From Thioploca ingrica (GTDB lineage Bacteria > Pseudomonadota > Gammaproteobacteria > Beggiatoales > Beggiatoaceae): a stretch of DNA of 64,000 nucleotides. A program made the translations under genes and the position numbers. Where the stretch lies: assembly GCA_000828835.1 (NCBI GenBank), contig AP014633.1, forward strand, positions 372,001 to 436,000. Reading direction: 5' to 3'. This document shows positions 24,027-59,356 of this stretch, piece by piece (position 1 is the stretch's first letter; every line of letters begins with the position of its first letter). The notes under the pieces were generated by a model that was not told the origin of the DNA, made no database searches, and worked only from the letters and a program-made list of their open reading frames with translations.

Positions 24027-26018
24027 TCAGTTAAAATGAGCTGTGCAAGTTTTAGCAGTATCTAGTGTCACGATAATTTTATTAGTCTTACCGCTACAAT
24101 CGCCACTCCAACCACCCCAAGTACCGGTTTGCTTGTAAGCGAGTAGTTCAATTTGAGTGCCCACTTGATAATCCTTGGTATAGTCTGAGCAAGTCGGTTT
24201 GCAACTAAAATTCGCTGTTCCGGCTAAAGAGGCGTTAATATAACCCGTTCCCCCGCCGGTTTTGTTAACCGTTAAAGAGACGGTCGTATTTGAAGAAGTC
24301 GTCTCAAAAGTTGCAGTACATACTTTAGCGCTATTCATCGTTAGGGTGAGGGGGTTTGCGGTACCACTACAATCACCTCCCCATTGCTTGAATTGGTTAC
24401 CGCTATTAGCAGTCGCTTGGAGTGTAACGGCTTGTCCACTAGGATATTCTTTACTACACTGACTGCCACAAGAGATATTGCCATCCTGACTGGTCACTTG
24501 ACCGTTACTGGGTGAAGTAATCGTGAGAGAATACAGCGGAATAAAGGTTGCTGTGCACGTTTTAGCACTATTCATGGTTACCGTGATGGAGTTAGTTGTC
24601 CCACTACAAGCACCTCCCCATTGTTGGAATTGGTTACCGCTATTAGCAGTGGCTTGAAGCGTAACAGCTTGTCCGCTCGAATAATTGGCAACACAATTGC
24701 TGCCACAATCAATTGTTCCATCTGAACTACTGACTTTACCGTTACCAGAAAGAGTAACCGTTAATGGGTAAGTTTGAATGCTCACGGGTTCAAAAGTAGC
24801 AGTACACGTTTTTGCACTATTCATGGTTACTGTAATTGGGTTGGTTGTCCCATTACAATCGCCTCCCCATTGCTTGAACTGATTACCGCTATTAGCAGTG
24901 GCTTGAAGCGTAATGGCTTGTCCGTCAAGATAATCAGCAGCACAATTACTACCACAATCAATTGTTCCATCTGAACTACTGACTTTACCATTGCCAGAAA
25001 GAGTGACCGTTAAAGGATAAGTTATTGAGGTACTACTCGTAGTCGCATTAAAAATAGCAGTACATGTTTTAGCGGTATTTAGTGTCACGATAATTTTATT
25101 AGTCTTACCGCTACAATCGCCACTCCAACCACCCCAAGTACCGGTTTGCTTGTAAGCGAGTAGTTCAATTTGAGTGCCCACTGGATAGTTCTTGGTATAG
25201 CTTGGACAAGTCGGTTTGCAACTAAAATCTGCTGTTCCGGCTAAAGAGGCGTTAATATAACCCGTTCCCCCACCGGTTTTGTTAACCGTTAAGGAAACGG
25301 TCGCAGAAGTTGTCTCAAAAGTTGCAGTACATGTTTTAGCACTATTCATGGTTAGGGTGAGGGGATTTGTGGTCCCACTACAAGCACCTCCCCATTGCTT
25401 CAACCGGTTACCGCTATTAGCAGTCGCTTGGAGTGTAACAGATTGTCCACTAGGATATTCTTTACTACACTGACTGCCACAAGAGATATATCCATCTTGG
25501 CTGGTTACATTACCGTTACTGGGTGAAGTAATCGTGAGCGAATAGAGGGGAATAAAGGTTGCTGTGCACGTTTTGGCACTATTCATAGTTACCGTGAAAG
25601 GGTTGGTTGTCCCACTACAATCACCTCCCCATTGTTGGAATTGGTTACCGCTATTAGCAGTGGCTTGGAGCGTGACGACTTGTCCACTAGGATATTCTTT
25701 ACTACATTGACTGCCACAAGAGATATTGCCATCTTGGCTGGTTACATTACCGTTACTGGGTGAAGTAATCGTGAGCGAATAGAGGGGAATAAAGGTTGCT
25801 GTGCACGTTTTGGCACTATTCATAGTTACCGTGATGGAGTTGGTTGTCCCACTACAAGCACCTCCCCATTGTTGGAATTGGTTACCGCTATTAGCAGTGC
25901 CCTGGAGCGTAACGGCTTGTCCGCTTGAATAATTGGCAACACAACTACCGCCACAATCAATTTTTCCATCTGAACTGTTAACTTTACCGTTACTAGGAGA
26001 ATTAATGGTCAAGGTGTA
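24027..26018. repeat. Tandem repeats in the subtilase gene (two A-A-A-B blocks)
   Basis: About 2 kb of near-identical ~225-base units. The B unit at about 24050-24290 is nearly the same DNA as that at about 25070-25310, and the A units around them match in order, so one block of roughly 1 kb appears to have been duplicated. Assembly errors are possible in such a region. Confidence 0.8.
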
Positions 26019-27386
26019 CTGAGGTGTGATTTGTACCAAAAATGGAGCAAGATTAATTCGCGACTTAGTAATATTATTCCTGGTATCTGTTATTGGAACT
26101 CCATTATTTTTTAAGTCGGTTAACAGGGAGTCAACCGTTGCTGTTGGAAACATTGATTTCAGAATAGCCCATGCTCCAGAGACATGAGGTGCTGCCATCG
26201 AAGTACCACTTTTTAAACCCATTTCTCCACCGGGTAGAGTGGATTCAATGTCGACACCTGGCGCTAATACATCCAGGAAACTGGCACTATTAGAAAAATA
26301 GGCAACGTTATCTGAGTTATCCGTTGCCCCAACACTGATAGTACTAGAAACACAAGCTGGCGCACTTAAACTATTAGTATAACCACTATTACCAGAAGCA
26401 ACGATAGTTACTATGCCAACAGATTTAAGATTATTAATAATCGCTGCTCTTGAATCGGTATCACAAGCTGCAGTGTATTGACCACCTCCCAAACTCATGT
26501 TGATAGCGGCGATAGGCGGATTAACACTGTTATAGTTAAGCTGAACCCATTCTAAAGCCGCTATTTGGTCAGAAACATAGGAAGCTGGCATACTATAGTA
26601 GTTAGAAAATACTTGTTCGGCGATGAGTTTGCTTCCCGTTGCGACACCGGTAACAATCCCGGCGACATGTGTCCCATGATCGCAGTAACTCGAAAAAGGA
26701 CAAGGTACTGCTGCTCCTTCTCCGTCTTGAGTAGTACTCCCATTTGGGCACTGTTTAGAAAAACAAAGTTCTCTTATGACTTTTCCGGCTAACTGGGGAT
26801 GAGTTTTATCAACGCCGGTGTCTAAAAGGACTACCGTTTGTCCTTGTCCAGTATAACCACTTTGCCAAGCCTGATTGGCTCCAATTAAAGGAACGCTATC
26901 CGTCAGGAGAAGTTCATCTGGAGAATCTAACTCAATTTGTTTTATTCCTGGGATTTTTTGCAGCTCAGACAAAAGTTTACTATCCACTTCCATACCCAGA
27001 TAGGGAACCGTCACGAACTCTTTAATGTTGAGGTTAGAACCTTTTTTTCTAAGAATAGACGTACCCTGGGCTTGAGTAAGCCGATCTTTAAATGTATCCT
27101 GCGCTAATTTTATAGTGTCCCTTTGTGTTTTAATACGTTCCGCTGCTTTGGAAGTTTTAGGTTTTCCTTCTGCTTTCCAGGGGATATCCAATTTAACCAG
27201 GATACGAACACTATCATTCTGTTGGATTTGCTCCAATACGTCCTCAGGGATAGTCACATCAGCCAAGCTGGTTGTTACCCAGAGTAAATTGAATAGTAAT
27301 AAAGTGATTATGCTACTTACCATATTGGTTAGAAACCAATTATTGGGGGTAATAAGTCTAAAGCAAAAAAACTTTTGCAGTTTCAT
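24027..27386 (-). CDS. Secreted subtilisin-like (S8) peptidase with repeat tail
   Basis: A 1119-residue exported serine peptidase. Signal sequence/anchor near 20-43, an inhibitor-I9-like propeptide (~55-155), then the S8 domain with catalytic Asp189 (LLDTGVD), His237 (DHGTH), oxyanion Asn333 (SGNSG) and Ser396 (GTSMAAP). All are present, so it should be active. Residues ~457-1119 are eight ~75-residue repeats of the divergent InlB-B type (LTI..P.NG.V.S..G.I.CG..C, then QWGG.CSGT, then NSAKTCTATF). They are arranged A-A-A-B-A-A-A-B, where B is a distinct unit (LTVNKTGGGTGYINAS). Each unit has paired cysteines. Likely released or attached at the surface. Substrate unknown. Confidence 0.93.
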   Translation of the reverse strand: MKLQKFFCFRLITPNNWFLTNMVSSIITLLLFNLLWVTTSLADVTIPEDVLEQIQQNDSVRILVKLDIPWKAEGKPKTSKAAERIKTQRDTIKLAQDTFKDRLTQAQGTSILRKKGSNLNIKEFVTVPYLGMEVDSKLLSELQKIPGIKQIELDSPDELLLTDSVPLIGANQAWQSGYTGQGQTVVLLDTGVDKTHPQLAGKVIRELCFSKQCPNGSTTQDGEGAAVPCPFSSYCDHGTHVAGIVTGVATGSKLIAEQVFSNYYSMPASYVSDQIAALEWVQLNYNSVNPPIAAINMSLGGGQYTAACDTDSRAAIINNLKSVGIVTIVASGNSGYTNSLSAPACVSSTISVGATDNSDNVAYFSNSASFLDVLAPGVDIESTLPGGEMGLKSGTSMAAPHVSGAWAILKSMFPTATVDSLLTDLKNNGVPITDTRNNITKSRINLAPFLVQITPQYTLTINSPSNGKVNSSDGKIDCGGSCVANYSSGQAVTLQGTANSGNQFQQWGGACSGTTNSITVTMNSAKTCTATFIPLYSLTITSPSNGNVTSQDGNISCGSQCSKEYPSGQVVTLQATANSGNQFQQWGGDCSGTTNPFTVTMNSAKTCTATFIPLYSLTITSPSNGNVTSQDGYISCGSQCSKEYPSGQSVTLQATANSGNRLKQWGGACSGTTNPLTLTMNSAKTCTATFETTSATVSLTVNKTGGGTGYINASLAGTADFSCKPTCPSYTKNYPVGTQIELLAYKQTGTWGGWSGDCSGKTNKIIVTLNTAKTCTAIFNATTSSTSITYPLTVTLSGNGKVSSSDGTIDCGSNCAADYLDGQAITLQATANSGNQFKQWGGDCNGTTNPITVTMNSAKTCTATFEPVSIQTYPLTVTLSGNGKVSSSDGTIDCGSNCVANYSSGQAVTLQATANSGNQFQQWGGACSGTTNSITVTMNSAKTCTATFIPLYSLTITSPSNGQVTSQDGNISCGSQCSKEYPSGQAVTLQATANSGNQFKQWGGDCSGTANPLTLTMNSAKVCTATFETTSSNTTVSLTVNKTGGGTGYINASLAGTANFSCKPTCSDYTKDYQVGTQIELLAYKQTGTWGGWSGDCSGKTNKIIVTLDTAKTCTAHFN

Positions 27387-36583: not shown

Positions 36584-38476
36584 TCATGACAATTCTTTTG
36601 TTGCAGAAGCATTATCTGTTTTATTGAACATAGCAGTAGTTGATTGGCCTATTTTTGGGGGAGTGATGTTAGCGGTCATCCCTTTGACACCTTGTTCAAG
36701 ATCAAATCCTAATTCCTTTAATAACCCGTCCAATAAAGGCGTTTGCAAGCGATAACGTAAGGCGGCATTAGTCACTTGCTCAGCTAAATTAGGGGTACCG
36801 GTTTCACCGCCAACCGGATGCCCACCCGCTAAACCCTCTATTTGGTAAATTTTAATCCCTTCAATTCGTTCCATCGGTTTAACCATTTGAGCAATAATGG
36901 CGGGCAATTGTTCAATGGTTTTCAGTTTAATTTGCATTTCAATTTGAGTCGCAGAAATAATATTAGCGGATTCATTGAGTTGGCGTTGACCTTCCGCTTC
37001 CACCAAGTAACGTTGTTTATCCGCTTCCGCACGGATTTTAATGGCTTCTGCTTCCGCTTGAGCAGCAATTTTACGGGCATCTGCTTCACCAGTCGCTCGT
37101 AATCGCCTTGCCGCAGCTTGATCTTCAGCAGCCTGCTTTTCAGTGGCGGCAGCGATAGTGATTCCAATTTTAACCGCCTCTGCTTCCGCTTGGGCAGCAA
37201 TTTTGCGGGCATCAGCTTCACCAGTGGCACGTAATCGTCTCGCTTCGGCTTGATCTTCAGCCGCTCGCTTTTCAGTCGTTGCGGCGACAGTGATTCCAAT
37301 GGCGTCACGTTCTGCTTTTTTATGTGCTTCAATCAGTTCAATTTGTTTTTGCCGATCCGCTTGAGCCACTTGCCGCGCGGTGATAACCAATTCTTCGGCT
37401 TTAGCCGATTCAGCACGGGCAATATCAGCCGCTGCTTTGGCTTCGGATTCTTCTTTGGATTTGTTGGCAATCGCAATGGCACGTTCTTGCTCGGCGAGTT
37501 CAATGGCTTGTTTGCGTTCAATTTCGGCCGATTCTACGGCTTTTCGTTGGGCAATACCTCTTTCTTCAATGGCTTGCCGCTTTTGAATTTCAGCCTGTTC
37601 TACTTGTCGTTGCGCAACAATTTTCGCTTCTTGAGCGGCACGTTCTTGCTCAGCTTGTTGTTTGGCAATTTCGGCAGATTGCTCGGCACGATAGCTTTCC
37701 ACTTCGCGTTGTTGGCCCAGTTTGGCATATTCGGTATCACGGCTTAATTCTAATTTTTTGCGCTCTGCTTCTAAATTCTTCGTCTGAATGGCGACTTGGG
37801 TATCTTGCTCAATGTCATTACGTCGTTTTTTCCGTACTTCAACTGATTCCGTTAGTTTAGTTAACCCTTCAGCATCAAAAACATTTTGGGGATTAAAGTA
37901 TTCAATATCAGTTTGATCTAAGGCGGTCAAAGAAACGGTTTCCAGTTCCAAACCATTTTGTTGTAAGTCTTCAGATACGCCAACTTGAACTTCTTGAACG
38001 AAATTAACCCGTTGTTCATGCAATTCTTCCATCGCCATTTTAGCGGCGACGGCGCGCAACGCATCGACAAATTTGCCTTCAATCAATTCTAAAATTCTAT
38101 CGGTGTGCATAGTGCGATGCCCCAAGGTTTGGGCAGCCGTCGCAATGGCTTCTTCATTGGGAGAAACCCGGATATAAAATTCGGCGGTGACATCAACGCG
38201 CATCCGATCTCGGGTGATAAGCGCCTGATCTTTGGCGCGATTTACTCGCAGGCAAACGGTATTCATATTGACCGGTATCGTGTCGTGTACGATAGGCAGG
38301 ACGAGAGCACCACCATTCATAATGACTCTTTGTCCACCCAAACCGGTGCGAACAAAGGAAACTTCTTTGGTCGAACGTTGATATAGCTTCGCAAAAATAA
38401 GTCCGATAGTAACCAGTGCGATGACGATAACAACGGGGATAATGACAATCCAGCTATTCAATAAATTTTCTGACAT
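36584..38476 (-). CDS. Flotillin / YqiK-type SPFH protein
   Basis: A 630-residue membrane-associated scaffold. An N-terminal membrane helix (~9-31) is followed by an SPFH/band-7 domain (~35-230). A long Ala/Glu/Lys/Gln-rich coiled coil (~230-500) follows, which contains two near-identical ~45-residue units (ATTEKRAAEDQAEARRL and AATEKQAAEDQAAARRL), then a C-terminal oligomerisation part. GAGGAG precedes the ATG. It follows a YqiJ-like gene on the same strand, as in other bacteria where the pair organises membrane microdomains. Confidence 0.92.
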   Translation of the reverse strand: MSENLLNSWIVIIPVVIVIALVTIGLIFAKLYQRSTKEVSFVRTGLGGQRVIMNGGALVLPIVHDTIPVNMNTVCLRVNRAKDQALITRDRMRVDVTAEFYIRVSPNEEAIATAAQTLGHRTMHTDRILELIEGKFVDALRAVAAKMAMEELHEQRVNFVQEVQVGVSEDLQQNGLELETVSLTALDQTDIEYFNPQNVFDAEGLTKLTESVEVRKKRRNDIEQDTQVAIQTKNLEAERKKLELSRDTEYAKLGQQREVESYRAEQSAEIAKQQAEQERAAQEAKIVAQRQVEQAEIQKRQAIEERGIAQRKAVESAEIERKQAIELAEQERAIAIANKSKEESEAKAAADIARAESAKAEELVITARQVAQADRQKQIELIEAHKKAERDAIGITVAATTEKRAAEDQAEARRLRATGEADARKIAAQAEAEAVKIGITIAAATEKQAAEDQAAARRLRATGEADARKIAAQAEAEAIKIRAEADKQRYLVEAEGQRQLNESANIISATQIEMQIKLKTIEQLPAIIAQMVKPMERIEGIKIYQIEGLAGGHPVGGETGTPNLAEQVTNAALRYRLQTPLLDGLLKELGFDLEQGVKGMTANITPPKIGQSTTAMFNKTDNASATKELS

Positions 38477-41672: not shown

Positions 41673-41782
41673 TCAGTTATCAGTTATCAGTTAATGTTAA
41701 ATTATTAACCATGATAATTGTCGATTTAACTAGAATTAATAACAATTAACTAACAACTGATAACTGACAACTGATAACTGGT
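41673..41782. repeat. Inverted repeat of CAGTTAT/ATAACTG units before the VWA gene
   Basis: TCAGTTATCAGTTATCAGTTA on the left and TAACAACTGATAACTG / ACAACTGATAACTG on the right form a long imperfect inverted repeat with an AT-rich middle. It ends about ten bases before the ATG at 41793 and replaces any visible ribosome binding site, so it could affect expression of that gene. Confidence 0.6.
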
Positions 41783-41792
41783 AACTGAATCG

Positions 41793-50122: not shown

Positions 50123-50175
50123 CGCTCTCTCCTGATTGAATTTAAGATAAGTTATTGCTAATCAATTCAGCACTT

Positions 50176-51102
50176 CTACGACAAACTCTTCACTTCTAGC
50201 GAATCAGTATAGACTTCAATTCCCAATTGTTGAGCAACCGGTTGTGCTCTGACATCAATCATCGGTGAAATAACCAACATCCGATTCACTTGTCGCTGAT
50301 GTCGCTTTTCGTAAAAACGCACCTTCCTTTCAAAGATATACATATCGGATTTACTCACGGAGGATTTAATCTCACAGATAATCAACAAACCATTCTTAAT
50401 AATCACATCTAACTCAACTTGGTCTGGTCTACCAAATACCGTCCCTTCGTCATCATACTCATTGACGTTAATCACTTTGACCTGAAAACTTTTTTCTAAA
50501 ATAGCGGCTAAGGCGTTACGAAAAGTATTTTCCGATTGGATACCCCAGCGAGCACCCAGAGCACCGAAACTACGATCTTGTTTCTGAGCAATCGCCATGA
50601 TATCTTCGTGCATGCGTTGAAATTCTTGCTGAGCTTCGTTCCACTTGCGGTTTTGCGCTTGAGCATACTCTTCCCATTTATGGTTTTGTTCATTCCATTT
50701 ATGGTTTTGTTCATCCCATTTGCGGTTTTGTTCGTCCCATTTGCGGTTTTGTTCTTGGGTATATTCCTTAAACTCCTCCCATTTGCGGTTTTGTTCCTGA
50801 ATATACTCCTCCCATTTGCGGTTTTGTTCTTGGGTATATTCCTTAAACTCCTCCCATTTGCGGTTTTGTTCGTCCCATTTGCGATTTTGTTCATCCCACT
50901 TACGAGTCTGTTCTTCTCTATCTCGCTTGAGTTCATTTAAGAGTTGATAGAATCTATCCTCGGTTTCTTGACGTTCGGCAAAATTTTCCCGTGCCAGTTC
51001 TAAAACCAGTTCTTGAATCTGCTTGTTTTGACGCACTAATGCCGGCAATCGCTGCAGGATGAGTTGGTCAAGTTGGTTGATGTCAAAACTAGGTAGTGTC
51101 AT
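50176..51102 (-). CDS. Coiled-coil protein with C-terminal PD-(D/E)XK-like nuclease domain (DUF3782-like)
   Basis: A 308-residue protein. Residues ~20-175 form a coiled coil; from ~66 to 157 it is built of heptads of the form NRKWDEQ. The C-terminal domain (~180-308) has the pattern Asp232 ... Glu244-x-Lys246 (VELDVII and CEIKSSVS), the core of PD-(D/E)XK nucleases, and matches the DUF3782-type proteins common in cyanobacteria and filamentous bacteria. Start set at ATG 51102 with GGAG seven bases upstream; an upstream start lacks one. Related in plan, but not in sequence detail, to the three genes at 51570-54433. Confidence 0.8.
   Translation of the reverse strand: MTLPSFDINQLDQLILQRLPALVRQNKQIQELVLELARENFAERQETEDRFYQLLNELKRDREEQTRKWDEQNRKWDEQNRKWEEFKEYTQEQNRKWEEYIQEQNRKWEEFKEYTQEQNRKWDEQNRKWDEQNHKWNEQNHKWEEYAQAQNRKWNEAQQEFQRMHEDIMAIAQKQDRSFGALGARWGIQSENTFRNALAAILEKSFQVKVINVNEYDDEGTVFGRPDQVELDVIIKNGLLIICEIKSSVSKSDMYIFERKVRFYEKRHQRQVNRMLVISPMIDVRAQPVAQQLGIEVYTDSLEVKSLS
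50632..50907. repeat. 21-bp coding minisatellite
   Basis: Repeated 21-base units (on the plus strand CCCATTTGCGGTTTTGTTC plus two bases) encode the NRKWDEQ heptads. Unit number may vary between strains. Confidence 0.8.
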
Positions 51103-51368
51103 AATCAATCTCCAAAGCGTTAAAGTAGTAATCTGTCTCTTTAAATAAAATTTAAACAATTGTTTTAGTTCAATAATAGCTAATCAGTTTTATATTTGCC
51201 CAGTCCAAAAATAATTTCGTATTTTTAGCCCACCCTACCTATCCCATTGTTTCCAGAAAGGTACTACTTATCAAACTCGGTCAACGATTCCACTAGTTCA
51301 AGCTAGGTATCATACTCTATAGGTTAGTGAGTTTATCGAACTATGATTGTTAACTTTCTAATTGATGA

Positions 51369-51548
51369 CACGCCCTAGAAAATATTCCCAGCTTAAAAAA
51401 TAATTTAAATGAATTAGTAGCCATTGCTTATCCCAAAGCGGTAAAACTGTCCGTGAAAGAAACTAAGCTACCCTCATCAACCTTTCCCCGTGATTGTCCC
51501 TATACCATTGAGCAATTACTTAATGACGATTTTTATCCTGAATCATAA
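51369..51548 (+). pseudogene. DUF29 C-terminal remnant
   Basis: About 59 codons without a start encode the typical end of DUF29 proteins: ENIPSLKNNLNELV, AIAYPKAVKLSVKETKL, then STFPRDCPYTIEQLLNDDF. The 5' part is missing (TGA just before). It shows that another repeat-prone family once sat here. Confidence 0.65.
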
Positions 51549-51569
51549 GTTCGTCGGTTAAGTTTCCAA

Positions 51570-52385
51570 CTATTCTTTTATTAAAGCAAACCGCTGCCCA
51601 TTTAATAACTCCATAGTCTCATCACCCATCGCCAACGCATAAATTCGTTTCTTGGTTAAATAATTCACCAGATCGTCATCTAAATACAACGAAGCAAAAA
51701 TGGGGATGATGGTTTTACCTTGATATTCGGGAAAATAATCGGTGACTTCTGCTAACGCGTTGATAAAGTCGTTAATCGCTTCTACCGAAGGCGTTGATTT
51801 AGTTTCATTAATCAGGACTTTATCCGCACAAACCGCGATGACATCAAACTCGCGGCGTTTGGAGGGATCTTGCTTATTTTTGACTTTGCGTCGGACCATA
51901 AAATCTTCCAAATCTTGACAACCAAAGTGAACTCGAGCTATCCGTGGTAAATTGGGGGCAACAATATCTTCAGCAATCGTTCCCATTTTCTGAGCTAACT
52001 CACCCCAGCGTTTGTTCCAATGTTGACGGTCTTCAGCCCGTTGTTTTTCCCAACGTTGATCCATTTCCGCCCGTTGTTTTTCCCACCGTTGGTTGGCGTC
52101 GTCCAATTGTTGTTGGAATTCCAACCAGCGTCTTTCCCAGCGTTCATCGGATTGCCTCAGATGTTCTTGCCACTGTTGTCGATCCTTCTCAGCTTGTTGT
52201 TCGAGTTGCGTGGCGCGTTGTTCCAATTGTGTCGCACGTTGTTCCAATTGCACTGCACGTTGTTCTTGTTGTCGTTCGAGCCGGTTAATTAACATCTCGG
52301 TTTGAACAATAAAATGACCTAATAAACCTTCGAGTCTATCGACTTTGGTTTCAACAATTTCAATCCGATCTTCTAAATTCAGCAT
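51570..52385 (-). CDS. Coiled-coil PD-(D/E)XK-like protein, tandem copy 3
   Basis: A 271-residue protein. Coiled coil over ~1-130 (Gln/Glu/Arg-rich, with QLEQRAT triplicated and QRWEKQRAE repeats), then a compact C-terminal domain with Asp181 (REFDVIAV), Glu194 and Lys196 (INETKST), a PD-(D/E)XK core. The domain is nearly identical in the next two genes upstream, while the coil length differs, so they are recent duplicates. Each copy is preceded by the same short leader containing TCTCCTTTTAAATTCAG on the plus strand (GGAG on the minus strand). No partner protein is seen. Function unknown; a nuclease role is inferred from motif spacing only. Confidence 0.8.
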   Translation of the reverse strand: MLNLEDRIEIVETKVDRLEGLLGHFIVQTEMLINRLERQQEQRAVQLEQRATQLEQRATQLEQQAEKDRQQWQEHLRQSDERWERRWLEFQQQLDDANQRWEKQRAEMDQRWEKQRAEDRQHWNKRWGELAQKMGTIAEDIVAPNLPRIARVHFGCQDLEDFMVRRKVKNKQDPSKRREFDVIAVCADKVLINETKSTPSVEAINDFINALAEVTDYFPEYQGKTIIPIFASLYLDDDLVNYLTKKRIYALAMGDETMELLNGQRFALIKE

Positions 52386-52413
52386 AAGATTATCTCCTTT
52401 TAAATTCAGTTCC

Positions 52414-53454
52414 TTAGCTAATTAAACTCCGTGGTTCGGTTAAAGTCAACCGCTGTCCATTTAATAACTCCATGGTCTCCTCACCCATCGCCAACGCATA
52501 AATTCGTTTTTTAGTTAAATAATTCACCAGATCGTCATCTAAATACAACGAAGCAAAAATGGGGATGATGGTTTTGCCTTGATATTCAGGAAAATAAGCG
52601 GTGACTTCTGCTAAGGCTTTAATAAAATCGTTAATGGCTTCTACCGAAGGCGTTGATTTAGTTTCATTAATCAGGACTTTATCCGCACAAACGGCAATGA
52701 CATCAAACTCGCGGCGTTTCGAGGGATCTTGCTTATTTTTGACTTTGCGTCGGACCATAAAATCTTCCAGATCTTGACAACCAAAGTGAACTCGAGCTAT
52801 CCGTGGTAAATTAGGAGCAACAATATCTTCGGCAATCGTTCCCATTTTCTGAGCTAACTCACCCCAGCGTTTGTTCCAATGTTGACGGTCTTCAGCCCGT
52901 TGTTTTTCCCAACGTTGATCCATTTCCGCCAGTTGTTTGTTCCAACTTTGGTTAGATTCTGCCAATTGTTGACGATCTTCAGCCCGTTGTTTTTCCCAAC
53001 GTTGATCCATTTCCGCCAGTTGTTTGTTCCAACTTTGGTTAGATTCTGCCAATTGTTGACGGTCTTCCGCCCGTTGTTTTTCCCAACGTTGATCCATTTC
53101 CGCCCGTTGGTTGTTCCAATGTTGACGATCTTCCGCCCGTTGTTTTTCCCAACGTTGATCCATTTCCGCCAGTTGTTTGTTCCAATCTTGGTTAGACTCC
53201 GTCCGTTGTTTTTCCCAACGTTGGTTGGCGTCGTCCAATTGCTGTTGCCAGCGTTCATCAGATTGCCTCAGATGTTCTTGCCATTGTTGCCGGTCTTTCT
53301 CGGCTTGTTGTTCGATTTGCGCGGCGCGTTGTTCCAATTGTCTTTCTAATCGGTTAATCAACCGCCCGGTTTGGGCCATAAACTGACCAAACAAACTTTC
53401 TAACCGATCGACTTTGTCTTCAACGACTTCAATCCGATCTTCTAAATTCAGCAT
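52414..53454 (-). CDS. Coiled-coil PD-(D/E)XK-like protein, tandem copy 2 (longest coil)
   Basis: A 346-residue relative of the 51570 gene. Its coil holds a tandem 29-residue unit (AEMDQRWEKQRAEDRQQL followed by AESNQSWNKQL), so it is 75 residues longer. The C-terminal domain keeps the Asp ... Glu-x-Lys pattern (EFDVIAV, INETKST). The gap to the next copy is 28 bases. Because 29 = 7+11+11, the unit fits a hendecad-containing coil better than pure heptads. Confidence 0.8.
   Translation of the reverse strand: MLNLEDRIEVVEDKVDRLESLFGQFMAQTGRLINRLERQLEQRAAQIEQQAEKDRQQWQEHLRQSDERWQQQLDDANQRWEKQRTESNQDWNKQLAEMDQRWEKQRAEDRQHWNNQRAEMDQRWEKQRAEDRQQLAESNQSWNKQLAEMDQRWEKQRAEDRQQLAESNQSWNKQLAEMDQRWEKQRAEDRQHWNKRWGELAQKMGTIAEDIVAPNLPRIARVHFGCQDLEDFMVRRKVKNKQDPSKRREFDVIAVCADKVLINETKSTPSVEAINDFIKALAEVTAYFPEYQGKTIIPIFASLYLDDDLVNYLTKKRIYALAMGEETMELLNGQRLTLTEPRSLIS
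52927..53210. repeat. 87-bp tandem coding repeats
   Basis: The sequence CGCCAGTTGTTTGTTCCAAC recurs at 52927 and 53014 (87 bases apart), with a further related copy near 53166. It encodes the 29-residue coil unit. Confidence 0.8.
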
Positions 53455-53491
53455 AAAGTTATCTCCTTTTAAATTCAGTTCCTTAGCTAAT

Positions 53492-54433
53492 TTAACTCCG
53501 TGGTTCGGTTAAAGTCAACCGCTGCCCATTTAATAACTCCATGGTCTCATCACCCATCGCCAACGCATAAATTCGTTTTTTAGTTAAATAATTCACCAGA
53601 TCGTCATCTAAATACAACGAAGCAAAAATGGGGATGATGGTTTTGCCTTGATATTCAGGAAAATAAGCGGTGACTTCTGCTAAGGCTTTAATAAAATCGT
53701 TAATGGCTTCTACCGAAGGCGTTGATTTAGTTTCATTAATCAGGACTTTATCCGCACAAACCGCGATGACATCAAATTCACGGCGTTTGGAGGGATCTTG
53801 CTTATTTTTCACTTTACGTCGGACCATAAAATCTTCCAAATCTTGACAACCAAAGTGAACTCGAGCGATCCGTGGTAAATTAGGGGCGACAATATCTTCG
53901 GCAATCGTTCCCATTTTCTGAGCTAACTCACCCCAACGTTTGTTCCAATGTTGACGATCTTCTGCCCGCTGTTTTTCCCAACGTTGATCCATTTCCGCCA
54001 GTTGTTGTTGCCAGCGTTCATCAGATTGCTTCAGATGTTCTTGCCATTGTTGTCGGTCTTTCTCGGCTTGTTGTTCGAGTTGTGCCGCACGTTGTTGCCA
54101 GCGTTCATCAGATTGCTTCAAATGTTGACGATCTTCTGCCCGTTGTTTTTCCCAACGTTGATCCATTTCCGCCAGTTGTTGTTGCCAGCGTTCATCAGAT
54201 TGCTTCAGATGTTCTTGCCACTGTTGCCGGTCTTTCTCGGCTTGTTGTTCGATTTGCGCGGCGCGTTGTTCCAATTGTGCTGCACGTTGTTCCAATTGTG
54301 CTGCGCGTTGTTCTTGTTGTCGTTCCAGTCGGTTAATCAACCGCCCAGTTTGAATCATAAACTGACCAAACAAACTTTCTAAGTTATCCACTTTATCTTC
54401 AACGACTTCAACTCGTTCTTCTAATTTCAGCAT
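53492..54433 (-). CDS. Coiled-coil PD-(D/E)XK-like protein, tandem copy 1
   Basis: A 313-residue relative, first in the direction of transcription. Its coil contains a 58-residue unit (2 x 29; starts RAAQ(I/L)EQQAEKDRQQ, ends KQSDERWQQ) present once in full and once nearly in full. The C-terminal domain is almost the same as in the other two copies (differences at single residues only). It probably leads the three-gene transcript, with 37 bases to the next copy. Confidence 0.8.
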   Translation of the reverse strand: MLKLEERVEVVEDKVDNLESLFGQFMIQTGRLINRLERQQEQRAAQLEQRAAQLEQRAAQIEQQAEKDRQQWQEHLKQSDERWQQQLAEMDQRWEKQRAEDRQHLKQSDERWQQRAAQLEQQAEKDRQQWQEHLKQSDERWQQQLAEMDQRWEKQRAEDRQHWNKRWGELAQKMGTIAEDIVAPNLPRIARVHFGCQDLEDFMVRRKVKNKQDPSKRREFDVIAVCADKVLINETKSTPSVEAINDFIKALAEVTAYFPEYQGKTIIPIFASLYLDDDLVNYLTKKRIYALAMGDETMELLNGQRLTLTEPRS

Positions 54434-54851
54434 AATCTAGTTTCCTGCTTATTAAATTAAAATCGATACTCTAATAATATATTTTAGTCCTTCCAAAGAG
54501 ATCAGCATTCTGAAAATTCGCTAAGGCTGAAAATTTTGATAATTATTTGATTTAACTGAATAAAGTAAATGAAAGCCAATTTCACCATTTATCCTATAAA
54601 AAATACCGTTTATCAAAAAATAGGCAACATTGTTTTCAACACTAAACTACGCTCAACAATATGGTAAGCGTGTCAATGTTTTAGAGACGAGATAGTTAAA
54701 AGTAAGTAAAGGGATTATTTGACAACCGCTTTACTAATGTTAGAATGACCAACATGGGTGGAACAATCTATCTTGACTTTAAGCAAACACGAAACTTTGT
54801 TGTATACTCAACAAAGCAATTCACAATATTTAGGATTTAGGAGTATAAACA
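54434..54851 (+). promoter_or_regulatory. Promoter region of the secreted pair, with perfect palindrome at 54795-54816
   Basis: CTTTGTTG-TATACT-CAACAAAG is a perfect inverted repeat (8-bp arms) whose centre TATACT is a plausible -10, placed 36-57 bases before the ATG at 54852. TTGACT at 54773 is too far (24 bases) for a normal -35, so an activator or another sigma factor may be needed. The palindrome would suit a dimeric repressor. The rest of this 418-base gap is AT-rich and otherwise empty; it must also hold the divergent promoter for the nuclease array. Confidence 0.55.
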
Positions 54852-59170: not shown

Positions 59171-59202
59171 TGGTGTATAACACTTCGCTTATACACCCTA
59201 CG
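59171..59202. repeat. REP-like hairpin
   Basis: TGGTGTATAA-cacttcgctt-ATACACCCTACG: stem GGTGTATAA/TTATACACC with a CTTCG-containing loop. Directly precedes the MITE-like element at 59209. Confidence 0.7.
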
Positions 59203-59208
59203 CGGCAA

Positions 59209-59356
59209 TGCCATTAAGTTAAGCATGATCCTCCCCCTCCTTACCAAGGAGGGGGTAGGGGGGTGGTAATTAACCAGTTGAAGAATATAAACTTTCTCCA
59301 CCACCCCCGGCCCCTCCTTCTCAAGGAGGGGAGAAATTCTCCTTAACTTAATGGCA
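59209..59356. mobile_element. MITE-like element, 148 bp
   Basis: Perfect terminal inverted repeats TGCCATTAAGTTAAG (59209-59223) and CTTAACTTAATGGCA (59342-59356). Inside are two C/G hairpins (CCCCCTCCTTACCAAGGAGGGGG and CCCCTCCTTCTCAAGGAGGGG). No coding sequence. Confidence 0.8.

Follow-up and report, generated by a model that had tools for sequence, protein, structure and literature searches.

What are four adjacent genes whose products each end in a compact domain that comes after a long region of helical repeats, and does the length of the repeat region, which differs among genes with nearly identical ends, matter to the protein? The window considered here is a 64,000-nucleotide stretch of the genome of Thioploca ingrica (GenBank assembly GCA_000828835.1, contig AP014633.1, positions 372,001 to 436,000), and it poses this question at 50176-54433. 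There, a reading of the sequence only had described four genes in a row that join a long coil to a C-terminal domain, and four minus-strand open reading frames (ORFs) of this layout are indeed present: A (50176-51159), B (51570-52385), C (52414-53454), and D (53492-54433), of 327, 271, 346, and 313 aa, respectively, in the ORF list. We favor, with moderate confidence, the explanation that stalked PD-(D/E)XK nucleases form a small array here, subject to gene birth and death, in which the length of the coiled-coil stalk is free and the coil phase is fixed.

The C-Terminal Domain

Motif conservation, a predicted structure, and fold matches indicate that the C-terminal domain (C-domain) is very probably a PD-(D/E)XK nuclease; the structure check thus sides with the nuclease core that the sequence-only reading had proposed. 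The conserved residues of 52 family C-domains form an E...D...E-x-K signature, in which G18, E22, E77, and K79 are invariant (52/52) and D64 is present in 51/52 (L080 has G). The AlphaFold2 model of the D nuclease domain (predicted local distance difference test, pLDDT, 90.7; predicted template modeling score, pTM, 0.85) contains the core fold and the E...D...E-x-K motifs of the PD-(D/E)XK superfamily. Structural comparison by VIA-align against 1000 chains, 15 of which reached Z >= 8, gave the CRISPR ancillary nucleases Can2 (Z 10.0, root-mean-square deviation 4.7 over 127 residues) and Card1 (9.3) as the highest-scoring solved folds, with VC1899 (9.3; 3.2 over 117), AF1548 (9.1), XisH (8.5), and EndoMS (8.3) as further matches. 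Can2 and Card1 carry a cyclic-oligoadenylate sensor domain, whose counterpart was not seen here; the coil stands in its place. The first Foldseek rows, which lie above E 0.001, are Can2, R2 retrotransposon proteins, a repair endonuclease, VC1899, R.BspD6I2, Cdn1, and McrBC, and the matched parts of these are, we assume, their PD-(D/E)XK domains. A sequence-profile search of the PDB returned nine matches, including VC1899 (9.7e-5) and a DUF1887 protein (0.003). Two results speak against the assignment: Foldseek by itself gives zero matches at E <= 0.001 (best 1.1e-3), and seven of the nine PDB profile matches are designed helical proteins aligned to the end of the coil.

The sequence-only reading knew no such system by name; one exists. 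By its profile scores, gene A is an ordinary DUF3782+PDDEXK_10 protein (COG5493/DUF1626), with 86.3 bits for PF12644 (cut-off 24.4) and 85.6 bits for PF07788 (cut-off 21.2). This known family combines an N-terminal coiled coil with a C-terminal PD-(D/E)XK domain, as at this locus, and A is a plain member, whereas B, C, and D match neither model at E <= 0.1; their C-terminal halves match no Pfam family, and NCBIfam returns for them only long coil proteins, far under cut-off. Among the 52 family C-domains, 12 match PF07788 and 14 match PF12644 at E <= 0.01, and that of D matches neither. A profile built from the D domain, with A-type rows excluded throughout, recovers seven of eight A-type proteins (E 7e-7 to 1e-3 among 1469 ORFs), which points to B, C, and D as a distant branch with the layout of A that Pfam and NCBIfam have overlooked. 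Against this link, the E-values of 1e-16 to 1e-22 obtained for A-type proteins at profile round three are inflated, because six A-type rows were already in the profile at round two, and the hhalign comparison of the B/C/D and A group profiles is weak (probability 27%, E 6.6e-4). The RmuC Pfam family is matched by none of the four genes and none of the 52 family members; a weak match of B to PADLOC RTasRmuC (E 0.0042) lies in the coil region. PADLOC matches of B-D are mostly in the coil, and A matches PDLC01085 at 1.4e-15 across residues 120-318. Matches to SMC, ZorA, and RNase Y were discounted as reflecting likeness between coils.

The layout of gene A, a DUF1626 nuclease with a coiled coil, was predicted in 2007 according to the accessible part of PMC1913061, and the accessible part of a 2016 paper (PMC4786415) discusses the coil, calls the family prokaryotic endonucleases, and solves the nonad coils of a related coil-only protein. 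The same parts of both papers make no mention of length change by 7 and 11 residues, the accessible parts of PMC11417379 and PMC7159879 contain nothing on the DUF3782-PDDEXK_10 family, and, as far as its accessible text goes, the open-licence literature searched gave no treatment of coil-length change in it. The B-D branch, unrecorded so far, the 7/11 rule described below, and the demonstration of that rule across relatives are new.

Coil Repeats and the 7/11 Rule

The features of the four genes, all on the minus strand, are as follows.

50176-51102: gene A, DUF3782 coil plus PDDEXK_10 nuclease (PF12644 E 1.6e-24, PF07788 E 2.1e-24)
50215-50421: PDDEXK_10 domain of gene A (PF07788 across residues 247-315 of the 327-aa ORF)
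50672-50913: coil arrays of gene A, 21-, 33-, and 42-bp units (Tandem Repeats Finder)
51570-52385: gene B, coil of 85 aa between the LINRLER and NKRWGEL landmarks plus divergent, putative PD-(D/E)XK domain (ORF, profile, alignment)
51573-52016: predicted nuclease domain of gene B (profile start at residue 124)
52386-52413: spacer and leader upstream of B, near copy of that of C (sequence comparison)
52414-53454: gene C, longest coil (155 aa) plus predicted nuclease domain as in B (ORF, alignment)
52417-52875: predicted nuclease domain of gene C (profile start at residue 194)
52876-53223: coil arrays of gene C, 87-bp (2.8 copies, 96%), 66-bp, and 33-bp units (Tandem Repeats Finder)
53455-53491: spacer and leader upstream of C (sequence comparison)
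53492-54433: gene D, coil of 125 aa plus predicted nuclease domain as in B and C; first in the array, own leader (full-length model, helix 4-174)
53495-53944: predicted nuclease domain of gene D, modeled with 6 extra residues (AlphaFold2 pLDDT 90.7, pTM 0.85; fold matches)
53943-54313: coil arrays of gene D, 174-bp duplication (94%) and 87-, 33-, and 21-bp units (Tandem Repeats Finder)

The start of gene A is most likely the ATG at 51102 (308 aa) and not the listed TTG at 51159, since its paralogue L071 begins with the identical MTLPSFD. The near identity of the C-domains of B, C, and D, noticed from the sequence, amounts to 95-99%, and the genes are separated by 28 bp (B-C) and 37 bp (C-D). 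The common leader DNA claimed for all three is found for B and C, upstream of which 67 bases (gene end plus the spacers 53455-53491 and 52386-52413) are near-copies, and fails for D, whose leader is different. The near-copies fit duplication of a gene plus its spacer, and by these comparisons B, C, and D look like a tandem expansion with D first.

Between the end of LINRLER and NKRWGEL, the coils of B, C, and D measure 85, 155, and 125 residues. The differences among them, 70, 40, and 30 residues, include no multiple of 29 and rule out the strict 29-residue unit of the sequence-only reading. The arrays that Tandem Repeats Finder detects in the coils have periods of 21, 33, 42, 66, 87, and 174 bp, from which the basic modules are read as 7 and 11 residues (21 and 33 bp) and their sums. 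The 21-bp minisatellite noted in the fourth gene was recovered as two arrays in A (50672-50754 and 50852-50913), C contains the 87-bp (29-aa) array (2.8 copies, 96% match), and D contains the 174-bp (58-aa) duplication. Array copies in C and D differ mostly by synonymous changes; two 87-bp copies in C, for example, show 1 synonymous change over 25 shared codons.

The same modules recur across relatives. Coil arrays occur in 55 of 64 family genes, and their periods, 139 in total, are without exception multiples of 3 bases. When the best array per gene was compared with nonoverlapping arrays elsewhere in the same loci, periods below 59 aa proved to be sums of 7 and 11 in 53/54 family genes versus 9/25 controls (Fisher p 1.4e-9), with values of 7, 11, 14, 18, 21, 22, 25, 28, 29, 32 residues and so on, and reading frame was kept in 55/55 family arrays versus 29/46 control arrays; since the family genes share ancestry, the counts do not represent independent events. 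For a helix that turns 100 degrees with each residue, simple arithmetic gives -20 degrees for 7 residues, +20 for 11, and exactly zero for 18, so modules of 7 and 11 keep the helix face aligned. Among 58 coils with a minimum length of 60 residues, hydrophobic periodicity, measured over up to 90 residues preceding the domain, has its maximum within 3.45-3.72 residues per turn in 55, of which 36 reach shuffle p <= 0.005. For D, the full-length model predicts one helix at residues 4-174, a two-residue break, and a helix at 177-194 that bears the motif-I glutamate, and in the domain model the first helix (residues 2-37), which bears this glutamate, is unbroken.

Several observations weigh on the other side. 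The full-length D model has a pTM of just 0.49, with uncertain relative placement; 19 of the 55 in-range coils miss the shuffle threshold and 3/58 are out of range. Pairwise alignment gaps by themselves do not display the rule: across 112 pairs with C-domain identity of at least 70%, 111/190 gaps under 59 fit sums of 7 and 11, in a test that half of all numbers would pass. Many nonfitting gaps are of 3 or 4 residues, lengths obtained when heptads, hendecads, or sums of them are subtracted from one another. The 7/11 rule rests on the within-gene arrays.

Elsewhere in the window, a 630-aa protein at 36584-38476, flotillin-like by eye, carries 33-bp and 132-bp arrays (11 and 44 residues) and is a second coil-type gene with hendecad expansion.

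Stalk Length among Relatives

Identical coil lengths in all relatives had been named as a finding that would count against the sequence-only reading; instead, lengths differ in nearly all close pairs. When only finished or nearly finished genomes are considered (G000, 1 contig; G028, 1; G010, 3), a restriction that guards against repeats collapsed in drafts, coil length is unequal in 12/12 pairs at C-domain identity >=80%. Among 34 pairs at >=85% identity, one has an equal length of N-terminus plus stalk and four lack internal gaps; at >=90%, total lengths are unequal in 20/21 pairs and internal gaps are present in 19/21, and at >=95% both hold in 7/7. Syntenic orthologues also differ, L077 and L127 by 18 residues and L076 and L126 by 28 + 18. 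At the L078/L070 locus, three neighbor genes are equal in length and 97.6-98.7% identical, while the nucleases have 247 versus 260 aa, with 70% identity overall and 87% in the C-domain. Across the relatives read, N-terminus plus stalk spans 27 to 295 residues. Two facts temper these comparisons: coil lengths from draft genomes may be collapsed, and the coil of L067 contains an assembly gap of unknown bases. Because syntenic orthologues differ, coil length is not a conserved ruler. The earlier idea of selection acting on coil length while the domain is held constant therefore divides: duplicated coil units and purifying selection on the domain are found, and a length held by selection as a spacer is not supported, as even syntenic orthologues differ.

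Selection, Homogenization, and Distribution

By the Nei-Gojobori method, the C-domains of B, C, and D show nonsynonymous divergence (dN) of 0.003-0.018 and synonymous divergence (dS) of 0.15-0.23, with dN/dS of 0.02-0.08, values indicating that the catalytic domain of these copies is under purifying selection. For the N-terminal 38 codons, a small sample, dN is 0.09-0.21 and dS 0.48-0.63. Because dS of the C-domain is below that of the N-terminus, these values suggest that the copies have been homogenized among themselves in the C-domain. The C-domain tree groups B, C, and D together (100/99) and, apart from them, five copies of the congeneric genome G001 (100/100), a pattern that would reflect either independent expansions or concerted evolution in these two congeners.

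A B-D-type domain or a relative of it occurs in 20 of 95 related genomes, that is, in 20/42 of its own taxonomic family and 0/53 outside; further relatives were found in one Poribacteria and two Verrucomicrobia assemblies, with a partial match in one Armatimonadetes assembly. PDDEXK_10 proper has eight dispersed copies in this genome and is found in 4/24 other genomes of the family (a chosen set), namely G001 with 10 matches (2 of them in short frames) and G011, G002, and G039 with a single match apiece. Frame-broken, truncated, or stop-bearing copies in three relatives (L030, L129, L039) are either decayed genes or assembly errors.

Genomic Neighborhood and Mobility

A link to defense or DNA-uptake genes, which the sequence-only reading had suggested looking for, did not emerge. 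Neither a defense island nor a recurrent neighbor was found among 137 neighbor proteins of other copies: the commonest family, Uma2, accounts for 4, the remaining neighbor families shown are ordinary, and PADLOC matches are scattered (a type II methyltransferase, Csx1, and a Cas12f-type protein). One neighbor protein matches Cas12f/TnpB-type models; TnpB is a mobile-element protein. No transposase is among the most frequent 25 of 187 neighbor families. Searches of phages with whole D or the A domain, of plasmids with the D or A domain, and of viral contigs with two patterns for each group gave no match. No coil-only partner was found either: all 14 matches of the A N-terminal region plus coil in this genome fall in its eight PDDEXK_10 genes, and full-length D, within which the B-D coils were searched, matches only nuclease genes.

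The locus coincides with a break in synteny.

50146-54480 (no strand): block without homology at the corresponding flanks of the congeneric genome G001 (flank homology up to 50145 and again from 54481, on two different G001 contigs)

In this genome, the G001 sequences next to the two flanks have their counterparts at 1.47 and 1.10 Mb. Two distant nuclease loci of this genome, L074 and L077, match opposite sides of G001 locus L127; by this comparison, the site is apparently a rearrangement breakpoint with a nuclease copy on each side. In the congeneric species G010 and G028, a family copy is located upstream of a malate synthase-isocitrate lyase pair. The notion of one copy at an identical site in three species was dropped, as the G011 relative (L085) lies at the opposite end of this pair.

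Other repeats were seen near these sequences and in the window. A repeat of ~110 bp at a G001 contig end (L118 9162-9278) was followed through the best 40 of 175 candidates, so its counts are at least those given: 38 of the 44 matches listed lie in this genome, one of them within the window at 59198-59308. At 41673-41693 and 41747-41788 lie direct repeats of TAACTGA, three copies in head-to-tail order on the minus strand; the window contains 19 TAACTGA versus 8.6 expected, and 0/100 shuffles reach 19. The accessible part of PMC4679880 reports TAACTGA repeats for marine Beggiatoaceae and Thioploca ingrica. A 1119-aa protein at 24027-27386, subtilisin-like by eye, has several near-identical C-terminal repeats of 79-83 residues.

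Proposed Mechanism and Competing Explanations

We propose that each protein begins with a short conserved segment, continues as a coiled-coil stalk, and ends in the nuclease domain, whose motif-I-bearing first helix the stalk would enter almost directly. At the DNA level, the stalk would be a minisatellite of 21-bp (heptad) and 33-bp (hendecad) modules whose copy number shifts, with slippage or unequal exchange as the presumed cause. A change would survive only if it preserved both reading frame and coil phase, which would leave phase fixed and length free. From the coil character, we infer that stalks pair into parallel oligomers that would gather the presumed active sites at one end. Since their last coil turns and catalytic domain are common to them, B, C, and D could co-assemble, with N-terminal ends at staggered distances.

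By analogy with Rpn, members of the family probably act on their own as nucleases, in genome conflict or in the processing of DNA. A role in conflict specifically is an inference that we hold tentatively, as the less probable case; neither neighbors nor defense context support it here. The accessible part of PMC3710099 lists archaeal DUF1626 genes in operons with HEPN and MNT genes, which by analogy is a hint at conflict; nothing of this arrangement was seen at the present loci.

Next to this array of phase-constrained, length-free stalks, the reading that fares best is a passive stalk, in which repeat number drifts by slippage, the filter acts on frame and coil phase only, and length has no functional consequence. 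This is a substantial possibility, if short of an even one: lengths are unequal in nearly all close pairs, the array copies of C and D differ mostly synonymously, and the arrays of the 36584-38476 gene mean that coil slippage is not unique to the family in this window. However, tandem arrays cover 19.8% of family-gene bases versus 1.56% of the remaining bases at the same loci, an excess over general slippage proneness in a comparison whose remaining bases are not matched for coil content. In addition, some N-terminal positions (R7, D16, E19, and R35, invariant in 11/11) are conserved across the stalk.

It is also conceivable, but unlikely, that the number of stalk modules is a self-recognition code. 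Gain or loss of 7 or 11 residues would preserve phase and decide pairing, so that paralogues or alleles form private or graded oligomers, with conflict with phages or rival copies as the driver; the genes would then be a second, independent PD-(D/E)XK family of this kind, with the order of parts reversed relative to Rpn. Rpn is the precedent, as one extra repeat abolishes the RpnS-RpnL effect in the accessible part of PMC10327210, and the 12/12 unequal pairs and the contrast at L078/L070 between conserved neighbors and diverged nucleases are in keeping with it. A strict code is weakened because modules of 7 and 11 keep phase and could let unequal chains pair from the nuclease end. Moreover, searches of the genome with the coil of A or with full-length D found no coil-only protein, the G019 paralogues L079 and L080 are equal in coil length, and at two other syntenic loci the C-domain (96%) is more conserved than the neighbors (84-92%). 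We consider passive drift more likely than a strict code.

A selfish or recombination-promoting nuclease, whose cutting and repair would spread the gene and rearrange the genome with coil arrays as recombination by-products, is improbable in our estimate. It would fit the array lying exactly at the synteny break with G001, the apparent second break at L074/L077 versus L127 with a gene copy on each side, the eight dispersed PDDEXK_10 copies, the Cas12f/TnpB-type neighbor, and the lower dS of the C-domain, as homogenization gives. Yet ectopic recombination arises from repeated genes without selfishness, the phages, plasmids, and viral contigs searched yielded no relative, no transposase stands among the 25 most frequent neighbor families, and the copy next to the malate synthase-isocitrate lyase pair keeps its position in both G010 and G028.

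A molecular ruler, in which coil length sets the distance between two bound sites like the TAEL repeats of EcoR124, would agree with the long, nearly uninterrupted predicted helix and with arrays in discrete units, but is very improbable given that length differs between the syntenic orthologues L077/L127, L076/L126, and L078/L070 and that N-terminus plus stalk spans 27 to 295 residues among the relatives read.

Relation to Known Systems and Significance

EcoR124, of a multi-subunit type, is a different kind of enzyme, and here there is no sign of length held at set values. The discussion section of PMC10327210 describes how the TAEL spacer repeat number of this type I restriction system alters its specificity. 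The best functional precedent, by analogy, is Rpn (YhgA-like), in which helix-repeat number sets partner specificity. According to the accessible part of PMC10327210, Rpn helix repeats vary between strains, one added repeat leads to loss of RpnS-RpnL repression, and Rpn protects against phages. As here, Rpn joins a PD-(D/E)XK domain to a helix whose repeat number varies in close relatives, with several copies per genome. In Rpn, however, the variable helix is C-terminal, has 4-residue repeats, and an internal start makes an antitoxin, whereas the stalk described here is N-terminal with modules of 7 and 11 residues (internal starts were not searched for). The Rpn/YhgA Pfam model is absent from the nine families matched by the 52 members at E <= 0.01. 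With Rpn models unmatched, the order of parts reversed, and no coil-only partner seen, we regard the likeness as analogy, not membership.

These results describe an orphan nuclease family whose predicted active site is under selection and which has many copies in this bacterial family, and alignments are now available for a branch overlooked by Pfam and NCBIfam. The family appears to follow a simple evolutionary rule, with length free and coil phase fixed. Together with Rpn, helix-repeat number would be a recurrent evolutionary dial on PD-(D/E)XK nucleases.

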